A stretch of 31,718 nt of DNA from a virus. A model generated the notes under the pieces. The model did not search any database. It had not been told where the DNA came from and saw nothing but the letters and a program-made list of their open reading frames with translations. Position 1 is the first letter of the stretch, and every line of letters begins with the position of its first letter. Shown here in pieces: positions 2,315-30,386 of the stretch. The translations under genes and the position numbers were made by a program. Location: positions 1-31,718 of IMG/VR virus record IMGVR_UViG_3300030103_002588. The stretch is one strand, 5' to 3'.

Positions 2315-4092
2315 TGAATATATTACAATTACAAGATGATTTAAAAAACTTTTCAGAAGAGCAGTTAGTTAATGAAATGAGGAGGCCATCAGGAACGGCA
2401 CCACAATATCTTGTATTGTCTGAAATGAATAGAAGACAAAGAGTTAAGTCTGACTATCAAGCAGCACAAGCATCGGACCTTTCAACAGTGGCCGAGGAAG
2501 CGGTGGCTAGCGCAGGAGTTCCTGCATCTGGTATAATGGGTATGGCTCAGGCTATGGCTCCTAAAAGTGAAAGTTCACTTTCAGCTCCTAAACCACCTGC
2601 TATGATGATGCGTGAGGGCGGTGTTGTAAATGCACAACAAGGTACATACTTTCCATCAACTCCTGAGTTATACGGTATATATGGTCAAGAATCTGGTTTT
2701 GGCAAGAATTTAATGGGTAGCTCAGGAGAGGTGGGTCCGTTTCAAGTTATGCCAACTACAGCGTTAATGCCGGGATACGGTATGTTGCAGTTATTTCCTG
2801 AGATATCAGCGCAAATAGGCAAAGGCAAAAAGTATGAAACAGCAGAGCAAGCCTATGCTGATAACAAAGAAAAGATAGATAGTGTTCTTATGAGTGGCGA
2901 AAAGACAGAGCCATTTGTAAAAAGTTATTTAGATACAGCCCAGAAAAATCTAGGAGGAGATAGGAATTTAGCTTTATTGGCCTATAATCAAGGAATAGGC
3001 GGAACAAAAGGATTTAAAGGTAATCCTTTAGATACTGATTATGTATCTGGTGTAAAAAGTAACATACCTATGTATGACGAAAGAGCTATAAAGCCAAATC
3101 TCTTGACTCAAATGATGACATCTACAGGAGAAGCCTCAACTCAAGATGATAAAGGTGAAGATAAAAGTCTTTTAGAAAAAATATTTACAACAAAAATACC
3201 GGGATCTGAATATATTGACCCAATAGGACCTTTATATAGATTTGGGAGAGACAAAATGGGTCCTGCTATTACAGAGTTTTATGACAATTATATCAAGGGC
3301 GCAAGCCAAGGTGGTAAAGAAAAAAATATTTTAAGAGCTATAGAGGGTCCTGCATTAAAGAAATATTTAGATGAGCAAGAAAAATTAGAGTTAGGCGCTA
3401 TGTTAGAGAGTGATATAGATTATAGTGAGCCTAAGTCATTTCTTGATACTATAAAACAAGCTGCATCTAGCTCAGACAACGAAACGCAGAGACAAAAAGA
3501 GATAAGAGAAGCAAATATTAAATCAGGTGAAATTGACAAACTTCCTGATGCAGGAATAGTTGCTGCAGGCATAGGACCAGAAATAAAAAAACCACCAGCA
3601 GGATCAGGAGAGGAAGATCAAAAGAAAACTCTTACATTAGATGAACAGTTAGTTGCTATGCAACAAGATCTTGCAAAAAGCAGAGAGCAAGACAAGTATT
3701 TAGCCTTGGCACAGGCAGGGTTGGCTATTATGGCATCAGATAAACCAACACTGGGACAGGCAATAGGAGAGGGCGCTGGTGTAGGATTACAAGCTTACAG
3801 AGATGCGCAAGAGAGATATCAAGAAGGCGTTATAGATTTATTAAATGCAAGAGCTAAACTGGCTAAAAATAAAACTACATTTTCAAGAAAAGATGCTTTA
3901 GCGGCAATAAACTCTTATAATACACAAATAACAAAACTACTTTCTGATCGAGAAGGTGTATTTAATGAAGAAGACAAAGAAAAAATTAATCAAAAAATAA
4001 GAAATCTAGAGTTTCAAAAATCACAATTATTACCCTTTGCTGGTATAATTGGAAGAGAAACCACAACAAAAGCAGAATATATGGGTGCATAA
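2314..4092 (+). CDS. Virion protein with lytic transglycosylase (SLT) domain
   Basis: 592 residues. Residues about 115-255 form a soluble-lytic-transglycosylase-like domain. The catalytic Glu is probably E126 in GIYGQESGFG, followed by GEVGPFQVMPTTA (about 138-150) and LALLAYNQGIGG (about 219-230), which are the usual ESG, GxxQ and AYN motifs. The enzyme would cleave peptidoglycan glycan strands, opening the wall locally during DNA injection. The C-terminal third (about 445-592) is helical, with a DKYLALAQAGLAIMASDKP block typical of phage ejection proteins. In T7 the transglycosylase sits on gp16; here it sits on the gene before the giant protein. TAATG overlaps at both ends place it in one operon. 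Domain call good, virion location inferred. Confidence 0.8.
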   Translation: MNILQLQDDLKNFSEEQLVNEMRRPSGTAPQYLVLSEMNRRQRVKSDYQAAQASDLSTVAEEAVASAGVPASGIMGMAQAMAPKSESSLSAPKPPAMMMREGGVVNAQQGTYFPSTPELYGIYGQESGFGKNLMGSSGEVGPFQVMPTTALMPGYGMLQLFPEISAQIGKGKKYETAEQAYADNKEKIDSVLMSGEKTEPFVKSYLDTAQKNLGGDRNLALLAYNQGIGGTKGFKGNPLDTDYVSGVKSNIPMYDERAIKPNLLTQMMTSTGEASTQDDKGEDKSLLEKIFTTKIPGSEYIDPIGPLYRFGRDKMGPAITEFYDNYIKGASQGGKEKNILRAIEGPALKKYLDEQEKLELGAMLESDIDYSEPKSFLDTIKQAASSSDNETQRQKEIREANIKSGEIDKLPDAGIVAAGIGPEIKKPPAGSGEEDQKKTLTLDEQLVAMQQDLAKSREQDKYLALAQAGLAIMASDKPTLGQAIGEGAGVGLQAYRDAQERYQEGVIDLLNARAKLAKNKTTFSRKDALAAINSYNTQITKLLSDREGVFNEEDKEKINQKIRNLEFQKSQLLPFAGIIGRETTTKAEYMGA

Positions 4093-7000
4093 TGGGTTTA
4101 TATAGAACTATAAGCCAACTTGACGGTCTAGAATATAATTTTGAAATAGACGGAGACAACCCAAGTGAAGAAGAATTACTTGCTATACAAAAGTATATAG
4201 CAAATCGGGGTCAAGATAATATAAACAAAGAAGTTCCTGATGATGGTAATTTATTTACAAAAGGTGTATCAAGAGGAATAGACCAACTGCAAAGAGCATA
4301 TGGTGATGCCCTTGTTGGAGTTGGTAAAGGTTTTGGTATAGAGGGTCTTGTAAATTATGGGCAAGAAGTATCAGAGGAAAATACTAGACAATTAGAAGAA
4401 CAAGCAAAGGATGCACGAAGATTAGATAGTATCAATAATCTTTCTACATTTGGTGATTATGCAGCATCGACATTTGGTGAGCAGTTACCAAATTTAGCCC
4501 CATCGGTTATAGGCGGTGTTGTTGGCTCTATTTTTGGTCCTGCTGGTACAATTGGCGGTATTAAAGTAGGAACATTGATAGGTGCAGGTCTTGCTAATTT
4601 ACCATATTTTTACGGCACTTTTGTTCCATCCGCTACAGATCCAGTTACAGGAGATGTTAATCAATTAAAAGCACTTACATATGCAGCTCCATCTGCTGCT
4701 TTAGATACATTAGGTGATTTATTGGTTACCGCAGGATTTGCAGGTAAATTATTGTCAGGCGGAGGTTTGTTTACTAGGGCAGGAAAAGGCGCAGGTAAGG
4801 GTGTTATAGCCGAGGTCCCGACTGAAATAGGTCAAGAAATATTACAAAGACATGCTGAAGGCAAACCTCTTTGGAATCAAGAAGCATTAGACACATATAT
4901 AGAAGTCGCTGCTGCCGCAGGTCTTGTTGGTGGTACAGTTAGTTCTGTTGGTAATATTGTAGGTGGTGATAAAGACAAACAACCTGACAAAATTAGTCAA
5001 TTAGATAGTGACGATAGAATAATGGCACAGCAAGTTCAGACTATGAACACAAATGCTGTTAATTTTATTAATCAACAAAAAGATATAGAGAGTTTTAAAA
5101 GCACAGACGGCAAGTTTGTAACTCTCTCACAACTCCCAGATCATATTCAAGATGAAATCAAAGACAAAAGACTGCAAAGCATAAGTTTTGGAGATATAGC
5201 TTCCGGTGCGCTTGCTCAACAAGATGTGGATAATAAAGTTAATAAAGAAATACTTACACAAGATGAGCTTGATGTTGCTATAGATAGAACTAACGATTTA
5301 GAAGCTGACACAAAAGATTTAGATTACAATAAAGTAAAAGATGCTGTTAAAAAAGAGGGGCAGTTTACACAGGCCATAGCTAAGAAGGCACTAAAAACTA
5401 AAAGTAAAAAGCCAATACCTCAATCCAAGATAAATGGCATTAGAGATAAGCTATTACAAAACAATGTTATAAAGAAAGACAAAGCTAAGTTAGTTGCCAC
5501 TTTATCTGAAGAGCAAGATATTAGGATTAAATCAGAGCAACTTAAAGCAAGAGTTAAGTCCATTATGAAAGATATGGATAAACTACAAAAAGAAAAGAAA
5601 AAGTTAGGTGCTATAGGTGATTTATCCATAGATCAGGTTAATAGACTAGATGAGATTAATGGAGAGATAGATGATCTAAGCAAGAAATACAGCGACACAT
5701 CTAAGGCAGCGACTAATTTAGCAAGTAGATCAGACAGAAAACTGGGTAAAAATGTAATTCGTCTAGGTCAAATAATACCACCACTAGAAGCAAAGAGCGC
5801 ATTTGACAATGCAAACTTCAAAACAGATGAGTACAAAGCAAAACAAAATGCAGTACAAAAATCATTGAAGGCATCTTTAGCTGCTATTGGATTAGGTAAT
5901 ATTAAGTTAGATTTTAAACCTATACTTACACCTAGAGGACAGCGGCCAGAAGAAGCGATAGCAGAAGGGACTGTAACGGAGGGTGTGTACTCTAATAAAA
6001 CTATAGCTTTAGCTATGGAAATATATGACCCAAGCCTTACAGAAACAGAGTTACAGCAAAGATTAGGCTCTGTAATGAATCATGAAATAATACATGCTTT
6101 GTTTGAGTTAGGCGTATTTACACAGCAAGAACAGAATATTTTAGTAAATGCAGCCAAAAATAGAAAATATGTACAGATTATTAATGGTGAAAAGGTAGAA
6201 AGAAAATACACATATCTAGATAGAGCTAATAGAATGTATCAGACTAAGTCTGATGGCTCTAAATACACAGCAGAAGAGCAGGCAGAAGAAGCTATAGCTG
6301 AGTTGTACAGAGACTTTGCTGATGGCAAAATTGTGTTAGGTGGTAAGCCTAAGACATTATTTGGTAGAATAATAAACTTTTTTAAGACATTATTTCAATC
6401 ACACAAAGAAGCAGGATTTAATAAAGCTGGTGATTTATTTAGAGATATCGGTAGCACAAACTTTCAAAGAAGAGTATCTGAGGCAGAGAAAAAGAGTGCA
6501 TCACCAGATGCTTTACAAGACTCAATAGAAAGAGAAAGTAGATTGGTTGGACCAAGTATTATACCTGATAACGTTCTAGAGACAGCGCAGTTTATAAGAT
6601 CAAATAAACAAAACTCTACAGATCAAACAAAAATAATGAACAAGCTGTTTAAGAATAGACAGCTTGAAGAAGGCCAAATGGTTACAGTTAGACCTAATTT
6701 AAACGGCTTTGTGCAATTGGATGACGGTAGCATAGGGATGACGCAAACAGTACACCCTGCTAAATCATACGGCACTGCTTTGGGATACGATAGCGTTGTT
6801 GCCATAAAAGATAGTGAGCTTATGGTGTCACCTCAGAAAAGGGCTGACATATACAAAGGTGTAACAAGAACTGGCGTTAAGCAAGACAAAGTCCCTATGG
6901 CTGGTGGTTATGGAGGAATAACGAATGTATCCAGACAAGAGATAGAAGATATTGTTTCTAACCCTGATAACATCTTGTCTTTTAACCCGGGTAGCGAAGC

Positions 7001-10000
7001 CAGAGGTATAAATGGAACTCATTTATTTACAGATAAAAATGGATATGCAGTTAAATCTATAAAAGGTATAGCAGTTCATCTTGGTAGCAAGGTTTTTGTA
7101 AAAGGGAACGTTAACTTCTACACAGAGGATAATGCACCTAAGCCTGTGGATAACTTGCCCTCAGATGTAAAATATGTACCTTTTGAGACAGAAGTCTCAT
7201 TAATAGATAGAAAGAATCAGGAAAAGTTTAGTCAATTACGAGGTGAGATAAGAGCCAATATATCTGCAGCAACTGATAGCATAACTGGGTTAAGTGAACT
7301 GCAAAAGGCAGCAAACAAAGGTGATGAAGATGCTATGGTTGCGCTACAAGAAGTTGCAATAAACTCTGTTGATTATTTAACTCAAGCAATACCAAATGTA
7401 GAAGTAGAGTCCACCCCAGCCTATGGCTTGTACGGTAGTGATTTAGAGCCTGCCGTAGGATTGAAGATAACATTTGATGAAGGAAGAAAAGATCTAGCTT
7501 TATCTGCTCTTGAGAAATTTGCTCAAAACTTTAATCAAGAACAAATACATGTAAGACAAAGAGTGGCTGATAGGTTTGGAAGGTTTAATAATTTAGTTGG
7601 TTATCAGTTTGGTGATGGTAGTTACAACACACCTGTGGTTAATTTTAGATTAACAGAGTCCATACCAACAAAAGAGTTATCAAGTATAATAGATAAAACA
7701 GGATTGGCAGGTTTTACTGTCACTGATAAATCATTACAGGCTTATTATTTAGGAGACCCAAATGACAGAACAGCAATCAGAGACTTTAGAAAATCAGTTA
7801 GAGGAGCAAGAAAACTTCTTGGACCAAGAATTTCAAGCCTTGATACAAGAGTTGAAAGACTCTGGGCTTACGGTTCAGGATACGGGGCCACAAATTCCTA
7901 TGAACAAATTAGAGGCGACTTTCCACTCCCAGAGACCGACCAAGCAGACAAAACAGCAAACAGAATAGCTAATAGATTAGCGCAAAGACTAGTAGACCCA
8001 ACTGTACAGGCCAAGACTCTTACAGATAAACAGAAGAATCTACAGATGGAAATAGCAAAAGACTATGATGCTATGGGTATAAATAACTTAGACAACCCAA
8101 CTGTTAGAAGAGCATATACTGAATTAGCACAAGAAGTCACAGAGCAATACAATGCTATGCCTATAAAAGTAGAGATATATCAAGACGAAGGTGAGCCATA
8201 TACAGGCGCTAGAATGTCAGAGGCTATGAGAAAAGATATACTTGCCAATAACCATCTTTATATTTTTGGAACAGAAGCTGATACATTTGGGCCGGAAGGC
8301 GTGGTCTATGATAATCATCCCTTATTAGAGCCAACAAATATAGTAGATATAAATGGAAGACCTATGCTCGTTAATGATTTATTAAGAGCTGTCCACGATT
8401 ATTATGCTCATACGATGTCTACTGTTGGCTTTGGACCATTAGGAGAAGAGGCTGCATGGCGTAATCACATGATTATGACTAAAAGCCCTTACGCAAGATG
8501 GGCTTTGACATCAGAGACAAGGGGACAAAATAGTTGGGTTAATTTTAATGAAAGCGCTCTAGGTGTAGAGAAACTGTCAGATAGGCCGTTTGCAGAGCAA
8601 AAGGTTGATTTACTGCCTGTTAAATATCTTATTACTAATGACCCTGAGGTTGATGCTAGTCTTGGTGAATTAACAGATAGCAATTTTGATGCAGATCCTG
8701 AGAAATATTCTATAAAAGGCATAAAGCCTAGAGATTTAACAATATTAGATAGAATGGATGAGAATGGTCAATTTGAACAAAGGGCTAAAGTTGGCTCTGT
8801 AAAGATGACCGAGGCTGTAAAACAACTGCATGCAGAAAGAGGCAATATAACACTTGATATAAATAATGCAGAAGACAGAGAACTTGCTGAATTAGCTATG
8901 TTTGAAGAGCTAAAAGCTCAGGTAGATGCAGATGAATCAGCTATCGGTTGGTATGATGATAAGATTAAACTTGCAAAAGAGTTATATGCAATATCAATTC
9001 CTATAATTAAAACTGATAAGAACGCTGAAGCTGCATTTGAATTTGTACTAGCTATATCTTCTAACGGTGAGGCAGTAGTTGCGCAAAGCAATGCACTAAA
9101 AACACAAATGGAAAACTGGGAAAGAACTGGTGAACTATTATTAGAAAACCAAGGCAGTCAAGCATCCGCTATGGAAAAGTCTTTTTTAACATATAATATA
9201 TTAAAAAAAGAAAAAGGCATGACAGACTTGGAGATAAAGAAGTTCTTACAAGTTGTTAGATCAAAGAAAGAAATAGAAAACGATCCATTAATACAATCCT
9301 TAACAAGTCTCACTGGCGGTAAGGTTACATTTAAACAAGAGACAGCAGATGAAATGGTGCCAATGTCTTTTATATTTGGCAGTAAAATAGGTGCATTTTA
9401 CCAAAATATTATAGGTAATTATGAGTATTTGACTATGGATAGATGGTTTATGCGTTTTGTAAATAGAATATTTGGCGTACCATTTAGAACAATAGGAGAA
9501 ACAACTCTTGTAAAGAATAAACAAGATGCACTTAGAGAGTTTCAAAAGGCATTAGAGTCAGGCACAGAAGATGAAATTAGTAGAATTAAAGTTGCAACAG
9601 ATGAATTAGGCACAGATATAATTAATATATCTAATGTTGGAGAGCTTTCTACTTTAATAAATGGCAGATTTAATAAAGATATAGAGAGAATAAGAAGAAA
9701 GAAACTTGGAACAAAAGAATTTATAGATACATATAAAACAGAGTTTTTATCAAGAGCGCAAAGATTAGCTGAAAACTTAGAGACAAGATTACAAGAAACA
9801 CCAAAGACACCAACTAATAGAAAACAGTTTAGGGTTTTATATAATAGGGTTATTGATAGATATAACAGACAGACTAATAGACAAATAACTGTTGCTGATT
9901 CACAGGCCGTGTATTGGTACGGTGAAAAAAGATTATTTAAGAGCATCGGGGTAGCCCCGGGACAAGGCAGCGATAACGATTATGTAGACGCAGCAATAGC

Positions 10001-13000
10001 ATTTTTAAGAAAGGAAGGCATAGATGACCAAACCATTGGAGAAGCACTCCCCCCAACAGAGCGAGAGCGACTCGCTGATAAGCGAGGTGCAGGACAAGGA
10101 TCTATCGATTCTACTGGACAGGTTGATACAAATATCGGGCATGAAAAAAGAGAGTACACCGAAGAAGAGTTAGTTGATTATGATCCAGCTAGAGACGTTG
10201 ACCCTAAAGATTTAGAGTTAATTAAAGAAACAATAAACGATCAAAAGTTTGCCATGATATCAACTGGCAAACAAAACTCTGCATATGGTGCAACAGGAGA
10301 GCTGGGTAAGTATTTATATGGTGTTATAAATCTAGATAACAGAAGTCTTCCTGTATTTTTTGTAGATGGTAAGCATGAAGAAATACCTAGAGGAAATACA
10401 TTTTTGTATAGTGGATTTGGAAACGATCACATTATAGCAATAAGACCAACAACTGGTAAAAGTCATGAGCAAGAGTTATTAGAAACATTTAAATATAAAA
10501 ATATAAAAGATTTGTTTTATGATAATCTTGCAAAATTATACTACCAGCAGAATAGGGATGACGTTAACAATGGAGTAGAGATTGTTAACACTACAGCAAC
10601 AGGTGTTAGGCTAGAGTTTAATAGGACCCCACAAAGAGGGGCAAAGCAAAATAAATTTGTTATGCCTTTAAAATTTGTTAAACGAGGAGAAAAGTTAGAT
10701 GAAACAAGTCCTTCATTTAAGTTTGATTCTTTTGTTATAAGAACAGGTTATCCAGAAGAAAAACTATTTAAACAAAGTATGTTAAGCACCGCTTCTATGA
10801 ACCAGCAAGAAACACCTATGAGCGCTGAAATAGATCAAGGTATATCTAACACAAGAATAAAAATACAGTATGATAATTTATCTAGAGTTTTAGCAAAGGT
10901 TGGGCATAAGTTTACTTTAGGTAGAGTTGAGGAAGACGATTTAAGAAAAGCGGCTCAAAATTTATTGATTCAAGTACAAGATAGATTCTTGCCTATTGGT
11001 GCTTTAATGGACAAGCTAAGAGAAAATGGTGCTAAAATAACAGATGCTATGGATACTTATATGCAAGAAGAGTTATTTCATGGAATAGCAGGTGCAAAAG
11101 TAGAAAAAGCACAAAAAGAGTTTTTTGAACCAATGATTAAGACTATAAATACATTAGATGTTAATCAAGACTCATTAAATACATTATCAAGGATATCAGG
11201 ATTTTATAAAGCTGCTAGTGATGGCAGATATCCTAGTAAAAAAATGGCACTTGCAGATGCTATTCTTTATGCTGCGCATGCGAAAGAAAGGAATGATTAT
11301 TTAAAAAATCCAATTGCATCTGGTATGCATAACAACGAAGCTGATAGAATAAATAATTGGATATTAACATTACCTGATTCTGAAAAAACAAAGATAAAAA
11401 ATATTAAAAACTTTGCAAAGTCTATAGTCAAAAACACAAATGAAGAAAGAAAACAAGGCGGTCTTATTCCAGAGGTATTTACTGATAAAGAAGGTAATCA
11501 GTATGAGAGAATATATGAAAACTATGTACCTTTGAGAGGTGATTTAAATTTTGAAGATGAAGCAGATAGTGACAGCAAGAGAGAAGAAAGAGCTGAAAAC
11601 TTTGTAATACAAAATTTATTTGGTGCCACAAAGAGACCGGATCGTAAAGCACGGGGAAGGATAAGATCTAAAGAGGGCGAAGTAGAAGATTTTTATGCAG
11701 AAAATATTGTTGCTACATTATTTGCACAAAATAATAAATCTATAGCAGATGCTGAAAGAAACAAGGTTGGTTTAAGTTATTTAAATCTTGTTAGGGGTAT
11801 AGAAGATGGAACTACAGAAGTTAACGATAACTTAAAGAAAGAAATGCAACACATAAGTGCAGTTTATTTTAACAAAGATGATATACCAAAAGACTTAGGA
11901 GAAAAAGAACAATATTTAACTGTTAGAGAAAATGGCAGAAATGTGTACATAACACTTAATGATGCTAGAATAGCTAGAGCTATGAAAGGATTTATGACTC
12001 CTGATAGTGTAGGTAGCTTTACAAGAGCTTTAGGTAAACTAAATAGATATTTATCTAATATTAATACAACGTACAACCCATCTTTTGTTATACCAAACTT
12101 TGCTAGAGACTTAGGAACTGCTGGTGTGAATGTTCAGCAGTATGATGAAAAAGGTTTAATGTCCGAGGTTCTTAAGGGTGCGCTACCTGCGGTGAAAGGT
12201 ATATCTAAGAATCTAAGAGACGGAGATGTTGATAGCTTTTGGGCAAAAGAATACACAAAGTTTGTAGAGTCAGGTGGTAAAAACGCAACGAACCAAATGA
12301 ATGATCTTCAAGATCAGATGAATAGTATAAATAGTATACTTAGTGATGTATCTGATAATAGTAAGAAAGGAAAACTAGGATTAGTTAAGAAAGGCTTTGG
12401 TAAATTAGGCAAGTTCTTAGATGATTACAACACAGCAGTTGAGAATGGTGTGCGTGTTTCATTATATTCATCTCTTGTAAAAAGAGGAGTAAGCACGGCT
12501 AGAGCTGCACAGGCAGCAAGAAACTTAACAGTTAATTTTGCTAAGGGTGGAGAGCAAAAGCAATTTTTAAATTCATGGTATCTATTTTATAACGCATCAA
12601 TGCAAGGATCAATGGCATTGATAAACGCTGCGGTTAAGTCGAAGCGTGTAAGAAAAGTGTGGGCTGGATTATTTGTTTATGGAGTTATGCAAGATGCATT
12701 TAACTCATTGTTATCAGGTGATGAAGATGAAGATGGCATTAAGGATTATGATGAGCTTCCAAGATATATACTAGAGCATAACTTTGTATTACCGACATTT
12801 GGTTTAGCAGAAGATAAGTTTATTACAATACCATTAGCATATGGAATGAACTTAGCTGTAAACGCAGGAAGAGCTGTTTCGAGAGCTGCTAGGGGCGAGT
12901 ATACACCCGGGGAGGCTAGCCGGACTATATTTGGTACTGCATTTGAAAGTTTAAGTCCTTTTGGTGGTTTTGATAACTTTTATAACTTGGCAGCTCCTAC

Positions 13001-13709
13001 AGTGCTGGACCCATTTGTCAGTGTGGCTATCAACGAGGACTACAAAGGTGACCCTATATTTAAAGAATCACCTCAATTTGCATCAAGACCTACACCTAAT
13101 AGTCAGGCATATTGGTCAAGCACAAGTGGAACAGCAGTAACAATAGCTAATTTTTTAAACAGTATATCAGGAGGAGATGCAGTAGAAAGTGGCTTTGTTG
13201 ATCTTTCACCAGACGTTATGGAGTTTTGGTTTGATTATACAACTGGTGGTGTTGGAAGATTTGTTCAAAGATCACTAGAATCGCCTTTCAAGATATATGA
13301 CGCTATCAACGAGGACTTACAAGCACCACTAACTAGCGTGATACCTTTTGCAAGAAAGGTAATAGCATCTCCAAGTGAAAGGGAAGATGTATCAAGTTAT
13401 TTGGAAAATAGAAAAGCGTTATTCACGATACTGGCACGATACGACTTAGCCAGACGATCTGGTGATACAGAATTAACAAGAGAAATATTCAGGGATAATA
13501 GAGAGCAGTTAAGTATTGTTCCAAGACTCAAAGCAATAGACAACGCAAGAAACAGATTACTAAGACAAATAAGAGAGATAGAAAGAAACCCAAGACTAGA
13601 TGAGAAAGTTATAAAGAACCTCATAAAGATAAGGAGGGATAGGATTAACGATCTCATGAGGCGTGGGCTTATCTTAATGAGATCGGCTGGGTTTAGAGAG
13701 GCAAGTTAG
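4092..13709 (+). CDS. Giant polyvalent virion/ejection protein, 3205 residues
   Basis: One uninterrupted frame of 3205 residues, far longer than T7 gp16 (about 1300). Visible parts in order: glycine-rich hydrophobic segments at about 130-180 and 270-295; a Lys-rich coiled coil near 475-515; a zincin-like metalloprotease with HEIIHALFE (H664, E665, H668) and a possible third ligand in EEAIAELY (732-739); a conserved phage module with HDYYAH (1435-1440), GEEAAWRNH (to H1459) and SETRGQNSWVNF (from 1474); a YWYGEKRLF block near 1941; and a C-terminal region (about 2550-2960) with NPSFVIPNFARD and LTVNFAKGGE motifs resembling large-polyvalent-protein domain 38. An acidic Ca-binding-type loop lies at 2877-2888. 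Such proteins are injected with the phage DNA and carry several counter-defence or takeover domains. Individual activities are unproven. Confidence 0.8.
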   Translation: MGLYRTISQLDGLEYNFEIDGDNPSEEELLAIQKYIANRGQDNINKEVPDDGNLFTKGVSRGIDQLQRAYGDALVGVGKGFGIEGLVNYGQEVSEENTRQLEEQAKDARRLDSINNLSTFGDYAASTFGEQLPNLAPSVIGGVVGSIFGPAGTIGGIKVGTLIGAGLANLPYFYGTFVPSATDPVTGDVNQLKALTYAAPSAALDTLGDLLVTAGFAGKLLSGGGLFTRAGKGAGKGVIAEVPTEIGQEILQRHAEGKPLWNQEALDTYIEVAAAAGLVGGTVSSVGNIVGGDKDKQPDKISQLDSDDRIMAQQVQTMNTNAVNFINQQKDIESFKSTDGKFVTLSQLPDHIQDEIKDKRLQSISFGDIASGALAQQDVDNKVNKEILTQDELDVAIDRTNDLEADTKDLDYNKVKDAVKKEGQFTQAIAKKALKTKSKKPIPQSKINGIRDKLLQNNVIKKDKAKLVATLSEEQDIRIKSEQLKARVKSIMKDMDKLQKEKKKLGAIGDLSIDQVNRLDEINGEIDDLSKKYSDTSKAATNLASRSDRKLGKNVIRLGQIIPPLEAKSAFDNANFKTDEYKAKQNAVQKSLKASLAAIGLGNIKLDFKPILTPRGQRPEEAIAEGTVTEGVYSNKTIALAMEIYDPSLTETELQQRLGSVMNHEIIHALFELGVFTQQEQNILVNAAKNRKYVQIINGEKVERKYTYLDRANRMYQTKSDGSKYTAEEQAEEAIAELYRDFADGKIVLGGKPKTLFGRIINFFKTLFQSHKEAGFNKAGDLFRDIGSTNFQRRVSEAEKKSASPDALQDSIERESRLVGPSIIPDNVLETAQFIRSNKQNSTDQTKIMNKLFKNRQLEEGQMVTVRPNLNGFVQLDDGSIGMTQTVHPAKSYGTALGYDSVVAIKDSELMVSPQKRADIYKGVTRTGVKQDKVPMAGGYGGITNVSRQEIEDIVSNPDNILSFNPGSEARGINGTHLFTDKNGYAVKSIKGIAVHLGSKVFVKGNVNFYTEDNAPKPVDNLPSDVKYVPFETEVSLIDRKNQEKFSQLRGEIRANISAATDSITGLSELQKAANKGDEDAMVALQEVAINSVDYLTQAIPNVEVESTPAYGLYGSDLEPAVGLKITFDEGRKDLALSALEKFAQNFNQEQIHVRQRVADRFGRFNNLVGYQFGDGSYNTPVVNFRLTESIPTKELSSIIDKTGLAGFTVTDKSLQAYYLGDPNDRTAIRDFRKSVRGARKLLGPRISSLDTRVERLWAYGSGYGATNSYEQIRGDFPLPETDQADKTANRIANRLAQRLVDPTVQAKTLTDKQKNLQMEIAKDYDAMGINNLDNPTVRRAYTELAQEVTEQYNAMPIKVEIYQDEGEPYTGARMSEAMRKDILANNHLYIFGTEADTFGPEGVVYDNHPLLEPTNIVDINGRPMLVNDLLRAVHDYYAHTMSTVGFGPLGEEAAWRNHMIMTKSPYARWALTSETRGQNSWVNFNESALGVEKLSDRPFAEQKVDLLPVKYLITNDPEVDASLGELTDSNFDADPEKYSIKGIKPRDLTILDRMDENGQFEQRAKVGSVKMTEAVKQLHAERGNITLDINNAEDRELAELAMFEELKAQVDADESAIGWYDDKIKLAKELYAISIPIIKTDKNAEAAFEFVLAISSNGEAVVAQSNALKTQMENWERTGELLLENQGSQASAMEKSFLTYNILKKEKGMTDLEIKKFLQVVRSKKEIENDPLIQSLTSLTGGKVTFKQETADEMVPMSFIFGSKIGAFYQNIIGNYEYLTMDRWFMRFVNRIFGVPFRTIGETTLVKNKQDALREFQKALESGTEDEISRIKVATDELGTDIINISNVGELSTLINGRFNKDIERIRRKKLGTKEFIDTYKTEFLSRAQRLAENLETRLQETPKTPTNRKQFRVLYNRVIDRYNRQTNRQITVADSQAVYWYGEKRLFKSIGVAPGQGSDNDYVDAAIAFLRKEGIDDQTIGEALPPTERERLADKRGAGQGSIDSTGQVDTNIGHEKREYTEEELVDYDPARDVDPKDLELIKETINDQKFAMISTGKQNSAYGATGELGKYLYGVINLDNRSLPVFFVDGKHEEIPRGNTFLYSGFGNDHIIAIRPTTGKSHEQELLETFKYKNIKDLFYDNLAKLYYQQNRDDVNNGVEIVNTTATGVRLEFNRTPQRGAKQNKFVMPLKFVKRGEKLDETSPSFKFDSFVIRTGYPEEKLFKQSMLSTASMNQQETPMSAEIDQGISNTRIKIQYDNLSRVLAKVGHKFTLGRVEEDDLRKAAQNLLIQVQDRFLPIGALMDKLRENGAKITDAMDTYMQEELFHGIAGAKVEKAQKEFFEPMIKTINTLDVNQDSLNTLSRISGFYKAASDGRYPSKKMALADAILYAAHAKERNDYLKNPIASGMHNNEADRINNWILTLPDSEKTKIKNIKNFAKSIVKNTNEERKQGGLIPEVFTDKEGNQYERIYENYVPLRGDLNFEDEADSDSKREERAENFVIQNLFGATKRPDRKARGRIRSKEGEVEDFYAENIVATLFAQNNKSIADAERNKVGLSYLNLVRGIEDGTTEVNDNLKKEMQHISAVYFNKDDIPKDLGEKEQYLTVRENGRNVYITLNDARIARAMKGFMTPDSVGSFTRALGKLNRYLSNINTTYNPSFVIPNFARDLGTAGVNVQQYDEKGLMSEVLKGALPAVKGISKNLRDGDVDSFWAKEYTKFVESGGKNATNQMNDLQDQMNSINSILSDVSDNSKKGKLGLVKKGFGKLGKFLDDYNTAVENGVRVSLYSSLVKRGVSTARAAQAARNLTVNFAKGGEQKQFLNSWYLFYNASMQGSMALINAAVKSKRVRKVWAGLFVYGVMQDAFNSLLSGDEDEDGIKDYDELPRYILEHNFVLPTFGLAEDKFITIPLAYGMNLAVNAGRAVSRAARGEYTPGEASRTIFGTAFESLSPFGGFDNFYNLAAPTVLDPFVSVAINEDYKGDPIFKESPQFASRPTPNSQAYWSSTSGTAVTIANFLNSISGGDAVESGFVDLSPDVMEFWFDYTTGGVGRFVQRSLESPFKIYDAINEDLQAPLTSVIPFARKVIASPSEREDVSSYLENRKALFTILARYDLARRSGDTELTREIFRDNREQLSIVPRLKAIDNARNRLLRQIREIERNPRLDEKVIKNLIKIRRDRINDLMRRGLILMRSAGFREAS
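7762..7968 (+). CDS. Candidate nested gene in +1 frame of the giant gene
   Basis: A 68-codon ORF lies wholly inside the giant gene, in the +1 frame. Its ATG is preceded by a full AGGAG at 7751-7755 with a six-base spacer, which is unusual for a chance internal ORF. The product is protein-like: a Glu/Gln-rich amphipathic helix or coiled coil (LENQLEEQENFLDQEFQALI) and a polar tail. The host frame at this point is Arg-rich and also looks natural, so both could be used. An overlapping gene, an internal regulatory peptide or a chance ORF are all possible. The mirrored composition (Arg codons in one frame, Glu/Gln in the other) could also arise passively. Confidence 0.3.
   Translation: MTEQQSETLENQLEEQENFLDQEFQALIQELKDSGLTVQDTGPQIPMNKLEATFHSQRPTKQTKQQTE
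11818..11833. promoter_or_regulatory. AAGTTA-N4-TAACTT palindrome inside the giant gene
   Basis: Exact match to the dispersed 16-bp palindrome, with spacer ACGA. It is the only exact copy found inside a coding region (it encodes part of a VNDNL stretch). It may be chance or a real internal site. Confidence 0.35.
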
Positions 13710-13725: not shown

Positions 13726-13760
13726 CTAGAAGTTCACGATTTCAGTGTTATTATATTACG

Positions 13761-13880
13761 CAGCCGACTGCAAAGTCCGAATATGGAGACAATAATGGGC
13801 AACACCCACTTTCAAGGCGAGGGCGAAACGCCTAAAGACGTTTCTTGGTTACTCGTCATGACTAGAGAAAGTGTGTGTTT
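13761..13880 (+). ncRNA. Structured segment between converging operons (RNA element or terminator)
   Basis: The segment is rich in potential stems. GACT-GCAA-AGTC (13766-13777) is a hairpin with a GNRA tetraloop. Bases 13801-13813 pair with 13867-13879 (12 of 13 positions) as a long closing stem. Inside that stem lie GGCG-AAA-CGCC (13822-13832) and GACG/CGTC (13837-13840 with 13854-13857), giving a three-way-junction shape. Weak U-rich sequence (TTTATAATTT) follows the long stem, so it could end the rightward virion operon. It overlaps a 29-codon ORF, and I cannot decide between an RNA element and a peptide gene. The stems are read by eye; no folding was computed. Confidence 0.35.
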
Positions 13881-17719: not shown

Positions 17720-17747
17720 GGTATACCATGCAGTACCATAATGTCAA
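17720..17747 (-). promoter_or_regulatory. Leftward promoter for the recombination operon
   Basis: On the minus strand, TTGACA (17742-17747) and TATACC (17720-17725) are separated by 16 bp, giving a predicted start near 17713 and a leader of about 18 nt that contains AGGAG. The -35 box lies inside the first codons of the divergent rusA-like gene, so the two transcripts overlap at their origins. Confidence 0.6.
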
Positions 17748-18133
17748 ATAAAATATATCCAAGTATCAAATTTGTTGTCGAGGGAGAACCAGCATCAAAG
17801 GCGAACTCACGAAAAATAGTAAAATTTGGAAAAAGATTTGGTGTAATTAAATCTGAAAAAGCTAGAAATTATGTGAAGTCTTTTCAAGAACAATGCCCTA
17901 AATTAGAAAAACTTATTGAACTTGATGTCATTGTTGAGATAAAAATATATTATCAATCTAGGAGACCTGATTTAGATGAAAGCGTTATCTTGGATTGTAT
18001 GCAAGGTTTTATTTATGCTAACGACAGGCAAGTTAAGCAAAAACATATATACTGGGGTCTCGATAGGGAGCAACCAAGAACTCACATCAGAGTTACGCCT
18101 ATGGAGGCTAGTCGTATGCCAAGCGATTTCTGA
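17741..18133 (+). CDS. rusA: RusA-family Holliday junction resolvase
   Basis: 130 residues from the ATG at 17741. The core RRPDLDESVILDCMQGF (74-90) followed by IYANDRQV (91-98) gives D77, D79 and D95 as the metal-binding acidic residues of RusA. The family resolves four-way junctions made during recombination and packaging. The usual DLDN is DLDE here, and the usual DD is ND. The upstream leader shows no Shine-Dalgarno, so translation may start on a very short leader; TACCAT is repeated just before the ATG. Its 3' end overlaps a second coding region in the +1 frame. Likely used to resolve recombination intermediates before TerL acts. Confidence 0.8.
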   Translation: MSNKIYPSIKFVVEGEPASKANSRKIVKFGKRFGVIKSEKARNYVKSFQEQCPKLEKLIELDVIVEIKIYYQSRRPDLDESVILDCMQGFIYANDRQVKQKHIYWGLDREQPRTHIRVTPMEASRMPSDF

Positions 18134-18335
18134 TAGCTATCTAGGAACGAGTAAAGAAAAATTAGCTATTGGAATTTGGATTAGTGGCAATGATTGCGAT
18201 CATGTATGCGACCTCGCAGATTTAAATGCCGAGAATATCAAAAAAGCAATCAAAGAAATTTTAGAGAGCAAACCTATCGTTGGAAGATATCTAGGCGAAA
18301 AACTAAAAAAAATAATTCAAAATTATTCTAACTAG
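18108..18335 (+). CDS. Small HTH-like protein in +1 frame of rusA, start unclear
   Basis: The frame is open from inside rusA to a TAG at 18333-18335. The part after the rusA stop looks like real protein: CQAISDSYLGTSKEKLAIGI, then a WISGNDCDHVCDLADLN segment and an AENIKKAIKEIL helix, a pattern I associate with small helix-turn-helix phage proteins (W-x-x-x-D, CxLAxLxxxxI). No ATG, GTG or TTG occurs in this frame between position 18018 and the protein-like region. GGAGG at 18103-18107 lies inside rusA at the point where a shift could happen. Options are +1 frameshifting from rusA, a start at a non-standard codon, or a sequencing indel. The start given is arbitrary. Confidence 0.45.
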   Translation, partial: LVVCQAISDSYLGTSKEKLAIGIWISGNDCDHVCDLADLNAENIKKAIKEILESKPIVGRYLGEKLKKIIQNYSN

Positions 18336-18400
18336 TATAACTAGTATATACTAGTATATTTATTTATTACTAGTATTAGTATTACTAGTATATACTAGTA
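18331..18400. repeat. ACTAGT cluster 1 (six copies) upstream of the helicase
   Basis: ACTAGT starts at 18331, 18340, 18350, 18369, 18384 and 18394, mostly inside TACTAGTATA contexts; several steps are 9-10 bp, close to a helical turn. The 17-base ACTAGTATATACTAGTA occurs at 18340 and 18384. The first copy overlaps the stop codon of the preceding ORF. Pure A/T sequence separates the copies. The position directly before the primase-helicase gene suits a replication origin or an operator array. Confidence 0.8.
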
Positions 18401-18475: not shown

Positions 18476-18507
18476 AAGTTAAACTTAACTTTTGTCTTGA
18501 TTATAAT
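18476..18507 (+). promoter_or_regulatory. Promoter with palindrome over its -35 box (helicase operon)
   Basis: TATAAT at 18502-18507 is preceded, after 17 bp, by TTAAAC at 18479-18484. The exact palindrome AAGTTA-AACT-TAACTT (18476-18491) lies over this -35 box, the classic place for a repressor or activator site. Transcription would start near 18514 and reach the ATG at 18552, which has GGAG upstream. Confidence 0.55.
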
Positions 18508-18551
18508 TTTTTTTCTAATTATGTTTGCTGTGTAACACATGGAGAAAGATT

Positions 18552-20330
18552 ATGGAAAACAACGAAAGCATCAAGTCTGATGCCCTGAGATTGGGGTTAG
18601 GTCAGCACAAAATATTCTGCCCTTTTTGTTCTAGTAAAAGGAAAAAGAAACATATCAAAACATTATCATTAAAGGTTGAGGACAACTCGATAGTTTATAA
18701 TTGTTGGCATTGTGCAGAAGATGGTGCAATAAAAATCAAACACAACAATTTTAGATTAATTAGGAGAGAACCTTTGAGCAAGGCAATAGAGGATAATTGG
18801 GATATCATAGATAACAAAGCAATAAGCTATTTAAAAACACGAGGGATATCAAAAGATACTGCTATTTCCTCAGGTCTTAAATTAACTAAAAAATTTATAT
18901 CCACGAGCAATAAAGAAGAAGATTGTATAGTATTTCCGTACTTCAATAATGGTGTTATCGAGTATGCAAAAATGAGAAGTTTCCCAACAAAGGGATTTAC
19001 AAGTCATGGGTCAGCATTAAACTTTTACAACATTGACAGTATCAAGGAAAAAGATTGGGTAATAATTTGTGAGGGGGAAATTGATTGTCTTAGTTTTAAA
19101 GAGATAGGACTTAATCAGGTTGTGTCCATACCTCATGGAGCAGTTGCTAAAGTTGTTGACGGCAAGATTGACCCCAAGGAAGATACAAAGTTTAAATTTA
19201 TTTGGAATGCAAAAGCAAAGTTAGATAAATGCTCAAAAATTATATTGGCATTAGATAACGATAAGTCAGGTCAGGCAATGTCTGAGGAGATTGCTAGGCG
19301 AGTTGGCAAGGATAGATGTTGGAAAATAGAATATCCAAAAGATTGTAAAGATGCGAATGAGGTTTTAACAAAACATGGTGCAGAAAAATTAGATAAGATA
19401 GCTACAACACCAATACCATATCCCGTATCGGGATTGTATGATGCCTCACATTTTTTTGAGGAGCTTGACGATATCTACGAGCAAGGCATAGGCAAGGGTG
19501 TTTCGACAGGTTATCCTGAGGTAGACGAATTATACACCATTGTTGAGGGTCAGCTATCTGTGGTTACAGGACACCCCTCAAGTGGCAAATCTGAGTTTAT
19601 AGATCAGATAATGATTAATATTGCCAAGGAAAAAGGTTGGAAGTTTGGCATATGCTCTTTTGAAAATGAGCCTAGAATACACATATCAAAGCTGATTAGT
19701 AAGTATTTAAGAAAACCATTTTTTGATGGTGCAACTGAGAGAATGACACCTGCTGATCTAGCCGTAGGCAAGAAATTTGTTCAAGAACATTTTAGTTTTT
19801 TGTATCAGGCAGATGGTTCTTTGTCTTCGTTAGACAGTATTATTGAAAGAATGAAAGTTGCAGTAATGAGATATGGGGTCAGGGGTATTATCATTGACCC
19901 ATACAACTATATTGCTAGAGACCCCAATACTTCTGAGACAGATTGGATTTCAGATATGTTAACAAAGCTGAGAGTTTTTGCTCAGGCACATAGCATACAC
20001 ATTTGGTTTGTTGCACACCCAACAAAGATGATGCGAAAAGATGACGGCACAGTACCACCACCAAAGGGTTACGATATATCAGGGAGTGCCTCATGGTTTG
20101 CAAAGGCAGATGTAGGATTAACTGTTCATAGACCTAATCCATCTAACTCAAATATTAGTGAGGTCTTGATATGGAAGTGTAGGTTTTCATGGGTCGGTTC
20201 GATAGGCGAATGTAGCCTGATGTTTGATAAAGCAACCACATCATATAACGGCATGGGTAAATTTTTTGAAACTAATAAAATGCTTATGCCTGACATTGTA
20301 GAAGATGATGAAAAAGAAGTACCATTCTAA
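18552..20330 (+). CDS. Primase-helicase (T7 gp4-like)
   Basis: 592 residues from the ATG at 18552 (GGAG upstream); an in-frame TTG at 18525 lacks a ribosome site. A zinc ribbon CPFC (23-26) with CWHC (51-54) starts the primase. TOPRIM motifs are CEGEIDCLSF (E174, D178) and ALDNDKSG (D235, D237). The DnaB/gp4 helicase half has Walker A GHPSSGKS (340-347), Walker B IIIDPYNY (D449) and the HPTKM and SWFAKADVGLTVHR motifs. It unwinds the fork and primes the lagging strand. It is the only replisome enzyme in the window, with no DNA polymerase beside it. The gene lies downstream of ACTAGT cluster 1 and a palindrome-covered promoter. Confidence 0.93.
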   Translation: MENNESIKSDALRLGLGQHKIFCPFCSSKRKKKHIKTLSLKVEDNSIVYNCWHCAEDGAIKIKHNNFRLIRREPLSKAIEDNWDIIDNKAISYLKTRGISKDTAISSGLKLTKKFISTSNKEEDCIVFPYFNNGVIEYAKMRSFPTKGFTSHGSALNFYNIDSIKEKDWVIICEGEIDCLSFKEIGLNQVVSIPHGAVAKVVDGKIDPKEDTKFKFIWNAKAKLDKCSKIILALDNDKSGQAMSEEIARRVGKDRCWKIEYPKDCKDANEVLTKHGAEKLDKIATTPIPYPVSGLYDASHFFEELDDIYEQGIGKGVSTGYPEVDELYTIVEGQLSVVTGHPSSGKSEFIDQIMINIAKEKGWKFGICSFENEPRIHISKLISKYLRKPFFDGATERMTPADLAVGKKFVQEHFSFLYQADGSLSSLDSIIERMKVAVMRYGVRGIIIDPYNYIARDPNTSETDWISDMLTKLRVFAQAHSIHIWFVAHPTKMMRKDDGTVPPPKGYDISGSASWFAKADVGLTVHRPNPSNSNISEVLIWKCRFSWVGSIGECSLMFDKATTSYNGMGKFFETNKMLMPDIVEDDEKEVPF

Positions 20331-27850: not shown

Positions 27851-28375
27851 ATGTCAGATAAAAAAGATAAGCCGAAATTAAAATTAGTCAGCAGTAATAA
27901 AGTCAAGAAAAGTTCCAAGCCTGAGCTGACGGCAAAGCAGTTGGGTTTTTGTAAAGACATAGTTGGAATGGGAAAAGATAAAGATGGCAATCCCAAAAAG
28001 CCAATGAGTTTAGTTGATGCATATGTAGCAAATTATAATGTTAGTCCTAAAACCAAGAACAACACTATAAGAGATATGGCAAGTAAGCTAAAAGCAAACC
28101 CATTGATTACCCATACAATTTCTAGAATGTATGATGAACTAAAGCAGATAAACAAAGTGTCGGCGATAAAAAAAGAGGAAGTAATAATTAGGAAGTTAGA
28201 AGAGTTCATGAATAATGAAGAGTTTTCAGATACTGCAAGGGTTAGATCAGCAGAATTGATTGGCAAAAGTTTAAGTATGTTTACTAATGTTACTGAAATA
28301 AAAGAAAGTGATAAGAGTTCTGTAGAAGTTGAACAGCAACTTAGGGAAAAACTATCTAAACTTTTAAAAGAGTAG
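27851..28375 (+). CDS. Terminase small subunit
   Basis: 174 residues. After a Lys-rich tail comes LTAKQLGFCKDIVG, SLVDAYVANYNV, and RDMASKLKANPLITHTISRM, the HTH arrangement of small terminases (T-x-K-Q-xx-F, A-Y, A-S-x-L-xx-N-xx-I). A helical oligomerisation part (EEVIIRKLEEFMN, RVRSAELIGKSLSMF) and an acidic end follow. It would recognise the packaging site and hand DNA to TerL, encoded 490 bp downstream. The ATG has only a weak GAG upstream, and the palindrome sits directly before it. Confidence 0.75.
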   Translation: MSDKKDKPKLKLVSSNKVKKSSKPELTAKQLGFCKDIVGMGKDKDGNPKKPMSLVDAYVANYNVSPKTKNNTIRDMASKLKANPLITHTISRMYDELKQINKVSAIKKEEVIIRKLEEFMNNEEFSDTARVRSAELIGKSLSMFTNVTEIKESDKSSVEVEQQLREKLSKLLKE

Positions 28376-28519
28376 TCGCTATCCACGAAATTTCAGTTAG
28401 TTTTGACCCTACCCACTCCCCACCACCCATGTCTGTAGGTGGCTAGCCGTGCCGTATACAGTTTATTTTACTCATAATTTCTACAATTTTTGGTGAAAGT
28501 GAAAGTTAACTTCTAACAT

Positions 28520-28654
28520 ACTAGTTTTTACTAGTACTAGTACTAGTATACCTTCCTTATACTAGTATTATATTATTATACATAGTATTAACTAGTACTA
28601 GTATTAAACTATATACTAGTATATACTAGTAACTAGTAATACTAGTATACTAGT
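28520..28654. repeat. ACTAGT cluster 2 (twelve copies) between TerS and TerL
   Basis: ACTAGT starts at 28520, 28530, 28536, 28542, 28561, 28591, 28597, 28615, 28625, 28632, 28641 and 28649. Copies are tandem (6-bp steps) or 7-10 bp apart, with two larger gaps. The 17-base ACTAGTATATACTAGTA at 28615 also occurs twice in cluster 1. A degenerate GTTA-N5-TAAC lies at 28505-28517. The rest of 28376-28519 has a CCACC/GGTGG hairpin (28419-28438 area) and a GGCTAGCC palindrome. The place, between the terminase subunits, suits a packaging site. Confidence 0.85.
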
Positions 28655-28666
28655 GGAGTAGAAAAT

Positions 28667-28873
28667 TTGTCAAACATTATTTACTTAGATGACTACAGAA
28701 AATTTATTCCTGAAGATGAGCCTGAGTTACAGGACCCTATCGTAATAGGATGGGATGAAGACGACAGTCTTTTCATTGCTTCGTCTGTTGACACAGACAA
28801 GTGTTTGTGGATGATAGACTTAGCTAAAAAGATTATTGAGAGCAGTCCACCAAATATAAAAAACAATGAATGA
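28667..28873 (+). CDS. Small acidic phage protein with TTG start
   Basis: 68 residues. The start is TTG at 28667, supported by GGAG nine bases upstream, right after the last ACTAGT. The sequence NIIYLDDYRKF, then PIVIGWDEDDSLFIASS and TDKCLWMIDLAKKIIE looks like a known small phage protein found beside terminase genes, function unknown. It overlaps terL by eight bases, so the pair is coupled. Confidence 0.65.
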   Translation: MSNIIYLDDYRKFIPEDEPELQDPIVIGWDEDDSLFIASSVDTDKCLWMIDLAKKIIESSPPNIKNNE

Positions 28874-30386
28874 TATTGCCAAGATAATTCAAAAGAACAT
28901 GAGCCAGATAAGCTCACTGCCTCCTGATGAGAAGATGGAGGTATTGAAACTTCTTGAAGAATATGAGCAAGCAAAACAAAGAGAAGAAGCCAGAGATAGT
29001 TTTCTGCCATTCGTTAAATCACAATGGGCAGCATTTATACATGGAAGACATCATGAGATTATGGCAGATGCTTTTGAAAGAGTGGCCCGGGGTGATTTGA
29101 AAAGACTGATTATTAACATGCCACCCCGTCATACCAAGTCAGAGTTCGCAAGTTATTTATTTCCTGCATGGTTTTTAGGGAGGTACCCCAATAAAAAAAT
29201 TATCCAGACCGCACACACAGCCGAATTATCTGTAGGATTTGGAAGAAAGGTTAGGAATCTTATACAGTCTGAAGATTTTCAAAAAATTTTCGCAGGCGTT
29301 ACATTGTCCTCTGACTCAAAGGCCGCAGGTAGATGGAACACTAATAAGGGTGGAGAATACTTTGCTATAGGTGTAGGTGGTGCCGTAACAGGAAAAGGCG
29401 CTGATGTTCTTGTAATAGATGACCCTCACTCAGAACAAGAGGCAACAATAGGTGATTACAATCCTGAAGTTTATGACAAAGTGTACGAATGGTATACATC
29501 AGGACCAAGACAGAGACTCCAGCCGGGTGGCTCTATTATTTTGGTTATGACAAGATGGTCAAAAAGAGATTTAACAGGGCAAATATTAAAAAATTACACA
29601 CAAAGAGAGGGATCAGGTGAGTGGGAAGTCATAGAATTACCTGCAATAATGCCATCAGGTGAGGCTTTGTGGCCAGAATTTTGGAAAAAAGAAGAACTAG
29701 ACAGTTTAAAATCAGAATTACCCGTATCAAAATGGAACGCACAGTACCAGCAAGACCCCACATCGGAAGAAGGAGCGCTAATTAAGCGTGAATGGTGGAG
29801 AGAATGGACAAAAAACGACCTTCCACCTTGCGATTCGATCATACAGTCATGGGATACAGCGTTTTTAAAGACACAGAGAGCGGATTATAGCGCCTGCACT
29901 ACATGGGGCGTCTTCCACGGGCCGGATGACGAGGGCAAAACACGACCAAATTTAATTTTAATTGATGCATTTAAAGAAAAACTTGAATTTCCTGATTTAA
30001 AACGGGCAGCATATGATAAATACTGGGAATTTGAGCCAGATCAAATGATTATTGAGGCAAAAGCAGCGGGATCACCCTTGATTTTTGAACTTAGAGCCAT
30101 GGGAATACCAGTTACGGAGTTTACACCGAGCCGTGGACAGGATAAGATAGCAAGAGTTAACAGTGTGACAGATTTATTTGCAAGTGGGGTTGTTTGGTAC
30201 CCACCGACTAGATGGGCAGAAGAAGTTATTGAGGAATGTGCGTCTTTTCCTGCTGGAGATCATGACGATTTAGTAGACTCAACAACACAGGCGCTGTTAA
30301 GATTTAGACAAGGTGGCTGGATCAGAACAACTATGGATGACTGGGACGATGAACCTAAATACAGAAGACCTGTGGAGTATTATTGA
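28866..30386 (+). CDS. terL: Terminase large subunit
   Basis: 506 residues. The ATPase has a deviant Walker A MPPRHTKSEFAS (K91, S92) and Walker B VLVIDDPH (D185, D186), with a coupling-type MTRWSKRDL (228-236). The nuclease domain has QSWDTAF (D330), MIIEAKAAG (E397) and GDHDDLVD (D465, D467, D468), an RNase H-like metal centre. It pumps DNA through the portal and cuts the concatemer. The first 40 residues are helical and would contact TerS. Stop overlaps the next start (ATGATGG area). Length is usual for the family. Confidence 0.95.
   Translation: MNDIAKIIQKNMSQISSLPPDEKMEVLKLLEEYEQAKQREEARDSFLPFVKSQWAAFIHGRHHEIMADAFERVARGDLKRLIINMPPRHTKSEFASYLFPAWFLGRYPNKKIIQTAHTAELSVGFGRKVRNLIQSEDFQKIFAGVTLSSDSKAAGRWNTNKGGEYFAIGVGGAVTGKGADVLVIDDPHSEQEATIGDYNPEVYDKVYEWYTSGPRQRLQPGGSIILVMTRWSKRDLTGQILKNYTQREGSGEWEVIELPAIMPSGEALWPEFWKKEELDSLKSELPVSKWNAQYQQDPTSEEGALIKREWWREWTKNDLPPCDSIIQSWDTAFLKTQRADYSACTTWGVFHGPDDEGKTRPNLILIDAFKEKLEFPDLKRAAYDKYWEFEPDQMIIEAKAAGSPLIFELRAMGIPVTEFTPSRGQDKIARVNSVTDLFASGVVWYPPTRWAEEVIEECASFPAGDHDDLVDSTTQALLRFRQGGWIRTTMDDWDDEPKYRRPVEYY

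Follow-up and report, generated by a model that had tools for sequence, protein, structure and literature searches.

Matched arrays of a palindromic word before the primase-helicase and large terminase genes of an uncultivated marine phage as candidate operators of a shared DNA-binding factor

A 31.7-kb fragment of an uncultivated marine tailed phage (the window; all 31,718 nucleotides of the stretch were analysed) carries two arrays of the palindrome ACTAGT, one before its primase-helicase gene and the other before its large terminase gene. Based on comparisons with related phages, in which the array word varies by lineage and yet agrees between the two sites of a genome, we consider the chance somewhat better than even that the arrays are operator clusters for one sequence-specific DNA-binding factor serving the replication and packaging units. 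A fuller reading, which we hold only tentatively and at somewhat less than an even chance, is that of a two-site regulon tying replication to packaging, with an operator word that has several times given way completely to another at both sites together (five clearly distinct words were seen) and that is read by a factor other than the small terminase TerS, not obligately orf75 or an AlpA-like protein, and possibly a host protein.

The large terminase (TerL) of the window shares 55% identity with its counterpart in pelagiphage HTVC027P, and searches made per protein with the primase-helicase, the VWA protein and the small ORF beside array A returned no close cultured phage. Positions 4092-13709 are taken up by one ORF of 3205 aa, which contains a large polyvalent protein domain (LPD38). 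The two arrays and the genes around them are as follows.

17741..18133, plus strand: RusA-like Holliday junction resolvase
18015..18335, plus strand: orf75, a small all-helical protein with a helix-turn-helix-like segment, of no known family
18331..18399, no strand: array A (primase-helicase site), six ACTAGT
18552..20330, plus strand: primase-helicase, with TOPRIM and DnaB-like domains
27851..28375, plus strand: TerS, the small terminase, a weak match to PHROG_51; relatives score above the Pfam Terminase_2 cut-off
28520..28654, no strand: array B (TerL site), 12 copies of the ACTAGT palindrome, flanked by TerS and by the 68-aa ORF that precedes TerL
28667..28873, plus strand: 68-aa ORF with a TTG start, the first gene 3' of array B, PHROG_11040 (unknown function)
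28866..30386, plus strand: TerL, the large terminase, Pfam Terminase_6C

ACTAGT occurs 19 times in the window, comprising the 12 copies of array B, the six of array A and one at position 7988. A preliminary description of the sequence had counted 12 copies in 135 bp, which is exact and far above shuffled expectation, as the 135 bp, dinucleotide-shuffled 5,000 times, gave a mean of 2.5 and a maximum of 7 copies and none of 200 whole-window shuffles contained a 135-bp stretch with more than two; the ACTAGT density of both clusters far exceeds local and global shuffles. The same description had found the word elsewhere just once, at 7988, and so missed the six further copies that make up array A, and it had pointed to CTAG-containing words as usually rare in bacterial and phage DNA, whereas CTAG itself shows no depletion in this genome (139 observed, 129 expected). 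Its setting of the cluster between terS and terL is right in that array B lies 3' of TerS, with the amendment that the next gene is the 68-aa ORF and only then TerL. The tandem, near-helical spacing is upheld in part, since start-to-start distances in array B are uneven (10, 6, 6, 19, 30, 6, 18, 10, 7, 9 and 8 bp, hence from 6 to 30 bp) and the array is therefore not strictly phased, while relatives do favour 10 bp at the second site. The half-site spacing of ACTAGT has its mode at 10 bp, and across relatives this is the commonest spacing at the array A site; inverted repeats are also enriched in non-ACTAGT arrays, but at several spacer lengths.

The two arrays are about 10 kb apart and both are AT-rich. 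The first copy of array A overlaps the stop codon of the preceding small ORF, orf75, whose ORF (start codon uncertain) overlaps the 3' end of RusA and itself ends inside the array, and the distance from array A to the primase-helicase is about 150 bp. The last copy of array B abuts the GGAG ribosome-binding site of the 68-aa ORF.

Comparison of the terS-terL gap across relatives, which the preliminary description had proposed, bears out the position of array B, as IMG/VR relatives identified by TerL have an array at the same place; the word itself differs between lineages. ACTAGT arrays stand at both sites in G001, G002, G004, G005, G010 and G014, and the near-complete genomes G001 and G002, the contig ends of which overlap, have no ACTAGT arrays beyond those two. 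Other lineages carry other words, including AATATTTATAAATATT, TATTATAATATA, CTAATAATTAG and CATGGTATACCATG, and again one word is common to both sites of a genome: AATATTTATATATATT in G003, G036 and G050, AATATTTATAAATATT in G029, G034, G040 and G043, TATTATAATATA in G007, CTAATAATTAG in G016 and CATGGTATACCATG in G020, with G033 a further genome of this kind. For AACCATCTATATGGTT and CCATATATAAATATATATTA the sites match only across separate contigs (L281 with L074 and L263 with L050, respectively). An array at the TerL site only was found in G006, G008, G021 and G013, and the scan used detected an array at neither site in G023. The sub-lineage formed by G006, G008, G020 and G021, which is without orf75 and the AlpA-like protein, has GGTATACC-type arrays at the TerL site, and within it only G020 has such an array before the primase-helicase.

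The arrays at both sites are also singled out by a repeat scan that presupposes no motif. Sharing of 8-10-mers between the primase-helicase and TerL sites is highest within one genome, and in permutation tests own partners scored above permuted ones when each type was represented by a single genome (n = 8; p ~3e-5), and with 13 genomes none of 20,000 permutations reached the observed value. Copy number and spacing change fast between arrays. Arrays A and B of G004 and G005 are reverse complements of each other with unlike copy number and spacing, and those of G003, G004 and G005 lie in opposite orientation at the two sites. In these comparisons both sites switch to the same new word together, and the best explanation of this concerted evolution is a single trans-acting factor that binds DNA and serves the replication and packaging units. 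A word that is the same at all sites of a genome and co-evolves between lineages is consistent with operators, and the dense operator that the preliminary description had offered as an alternative fits two arrays with a shared word; the matching of the sites could also partly reflect recombination between them.

Under the operator reading, one factor would occupy both arrays and so address the primase-helicase unit as well as a packaging unit made up of the 68-aa ORF, TerL and the downstream late genes. The repeat units are palindromic, and their half-sites are separated by roughly one turn of the helix (10 bp being the ACTAGT mode), a spacing that suggests the geometry of a dimer on one helix face; the putative protein may bind as a dimer over two half-sites, fill the array cooperatively and regulate transcription, either activating or repressing it. 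The reverse-complement arrays of G004 and G005 fit a site in double-stranded DNA and not an RNA leader element. Both arrays lie beside gene starts, array B at a ribosome-binding site and array A at a promoter-like element, around which two features were located.

18476..18491, no strand: a copy of the palindrome AAGTTA-N4-TAACTT, one of six dispersed copies, just upstream of the promoter candidate
18497..18525, plus strand: sigma70-like promoter candidate, TTGATT-N17-TATGTT

A sigma70-like element of this type (TTGAC/TTGAT-N17-TATNNT or near) is present in each of the 11 genomes compared, 52-61 bp ahead of the primase-helicase and downstream of array A in those that have this array, and in the window array A ends about 95 bp upstream of the candidate. 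A promoter scan of the TerL gap yielded one 11/12 match, which is antisense, and no promoter could be assigned there. Array A, upstream of a conserved sigma70-like promoter, would be placed to control the primase-helicase, and array B, in a leader beside the ribosome-binding site, would act as a block or gate for transcription entering the late genes.

The 16-bp palindrome AAGTTA-N4-TAACTT occurs six times in the window (at 11818, 15116, 18476, 20884, 23360 and 27821, against 0.12 expected), with several copies intergenic and with a spacer of always exactly 4 in a scan permitting 1-7, and there are 7-10 copies in each of G001, G002, G004 and G007. It is unchanged across lineages with differing arrays, and its constancy indicates that the array switches are not a matter of composition or general drift. 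We regard it as a second, lineage-stable, operator-like element.

The main rival to operator arrays is that the repeats are replication-origin iterons, in which case an initiator would bind one origin by the primase-helicase and a second near TerL, load the phage helicase and recruit the host polymerase; we consider this unlikely. Lambda-type origin iterons are palindromic sites in tandem, rich in AT and located next to a replication gene, and array A resembles them in all of these respects, standing directly before the primase-helicase in AT-rich sequence. Scans of ten large proteins (G001 structural part) and of window proteins detected no DNA polymerase, which makes use of the host replisome likely, and both an unrelated phage (L035), with ACTAGT clusters, and distant relatives (L202-L215), with CTAG-rich stretches, have these near or before primase/helicase-like ORFs. 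Iterons would, however, be confined to the replication locus, whereas the present phages have a second matching array before a terminase gene, which is the more universal of the two, is the sole array in G006, G008 and G021, and lies against a ribosome-binding site. The primase-helicase is separated from array A by a conserved promoter-like element, and GC skew tracks gene strand with no array-specific switch. The TerL array, alone in some lineages, argues against an origin as the whole story.

A further explanation, which we regard as quite improbable, is that the arrays are selfish or neutral repeats, expanded and homogenised between the sites by recombination without any reader. It would accommodate the rapid variation in copy number and spacing, and these phages encode a PD-(D/E)XK nuclease as well as RusA; it sits poorly with repeats that, even among widely diverged phages, occur at two orthologous sites only and that keep their word while the order and spacing of the copies differ between sites.

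The reading favoured in the preliminary description, a pac/cos-like packaging site recognised by TerS, is one to which we assign a small probability. The position of array B between terS and terL speaks for it, as in the SPP1/SF6 and P22 pac sites, which likewise have repeats near the small terminase gene, and bending of the DNA by AT-rich repeats is conceivable. A genome would be expected to have a single packaging site, whereas each genome with matched arrays carries two arrays, the second some 10 kb away, and, again unlike those pac sites, there is no co-variation with the helix-turn-helix of TerS. The array of the window is 98% identical to that of L017 over 162 bp, while their TerS helix-turn-helix regions are only 50% identical; conversely, this region of the L017 TerS is 89% identical to that of G003 and L078, and 89% identity likewise holds against L150; the arrays of these are wholly different (AT words in G003 and L078). 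The array of L045 is 100% identical over 135 bp to that of G002 / L148, with 53% identity between the TerS helix-turn-helix regions. On the strength of the two sites and of this double dissociation, a pac site read by TerS appears unlikely, and TerS was rejected as the reader of the arrays. The DNA-binding domain of SF6 TerS has little sequence specificity in binding pac DNA and can choose DNA by shape instead of sequence (PMC4737164), which leaves room for a shape-based packaging role, but such a role would not explain the same word at both sites. Between the TerS proteins of the window and L017, the N-terminal helix-turn-helix half has been swapped, with the C-terminal half still 91% identical.

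A better candidate than array B for pac/cos, or for a late promoter, may be a neighbouring block.

28376..28512, no strand: conserved noncoding block 3' of TerS, kept across lineages with different arrays

Within this AT-rich genome, the minus strand of the block carries a G-quadruplex-like run (28407-28428).

Least plausible, and in our view very unlikely, is control at the RNA level by hairpins in the leaders of the late and primase-helicase mRNAs. In its favour, stems of 6 bp closed by 4-nt loops are possible for both ACTAGT-N4-ACTAGT and AACCAT-CTAT-ATGGTT, and array B ends at a ribosome-binding site; the opposite orientation of the arrays in three genomes, the lack of any Rfam family match, and the location of array A upstream of the promoter candidate, which would leave it out of that transcript, stand against it.

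For the operator reading, the cognate regulator would have to fit all lineages, and none of the proteins tested (TerS, orf75 and the AlpA-like protein) does so. The product of orf75, which adjoins array A, is predicted to be a five-helix bundle (pLDDT 94.5) without a fold match, and an association between its residues and the array word is confounded by phylogeny; it was rejected as reader, G020 being without orf75 and yet keeping both matched arrays. In every genome examined, about 100 nt at the start of the orf75 family member lie within the RusA gene, and the family was not found in cultured phages or in GTDB (cellular) genomes. G020 likewise has no AlpA-like protein, and the window and G001, despite near-identical arrays, have different recognition helices in theirs. 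A further candidate, orf157, is missing from G007, which has matched arrays. A Pfam scan of window proteins found no TrpR, ribbon-helix-helix or other repressor family, with the exception of the AlpA/HTH_17 protein. What reads the arrays would be some other protein or a factor of the host, unless lineages differ in their reader.

Among known systems, the arrays may be compared with the stoperators of Cluster A mycobacteriophages (L5, Bxb1), in which the site has diverged between subclusters along with the repressor (PMC6550527). Common to both are several copies of one site per genome, with a sequence that diverges between lineages. Stoperators are asymmetric sites of 13-14 bp, scattered in up to ~30 copies per genome of temperate phages and bound by a known repressor, whereas the words described here are palindromic and packed in two clusters only, and no integrase was seen in the window. 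The operator core of Escherichia coli TrpR consists of two tandem ACTAGT half-sites (ACTAGTTAACTAGT). Its half-site spacing is 8, against a commonest 10 bp here, the words of the relatives are quite different, and the TrpR family had no match among the window proteins scanned with Pfam, so that we treat the likeness as a resemblance only. No match came from literature searches on ACTAGT repeats, whether in phages or in connection with TrpR.

If the arrays are operators, the clade would offer a natural series of specificity switches in which the surrounding genes are still alignable, so that comparing sequences would be a way to study how a regulator and its separate sites change specificity in step; the regulon would also connect replication with packaging. 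A repeat cluster in a terS-terL gap needs to be checked for a second site and for co-variation with TerS before it is named a pac site. Beyond the clade, L035, which has no detectable similarity to the proteins of the window, has its ACTAGT clusters at 6712-6783 and 13744-13874, the first of these being the one near primase/helicase-like ORFs.
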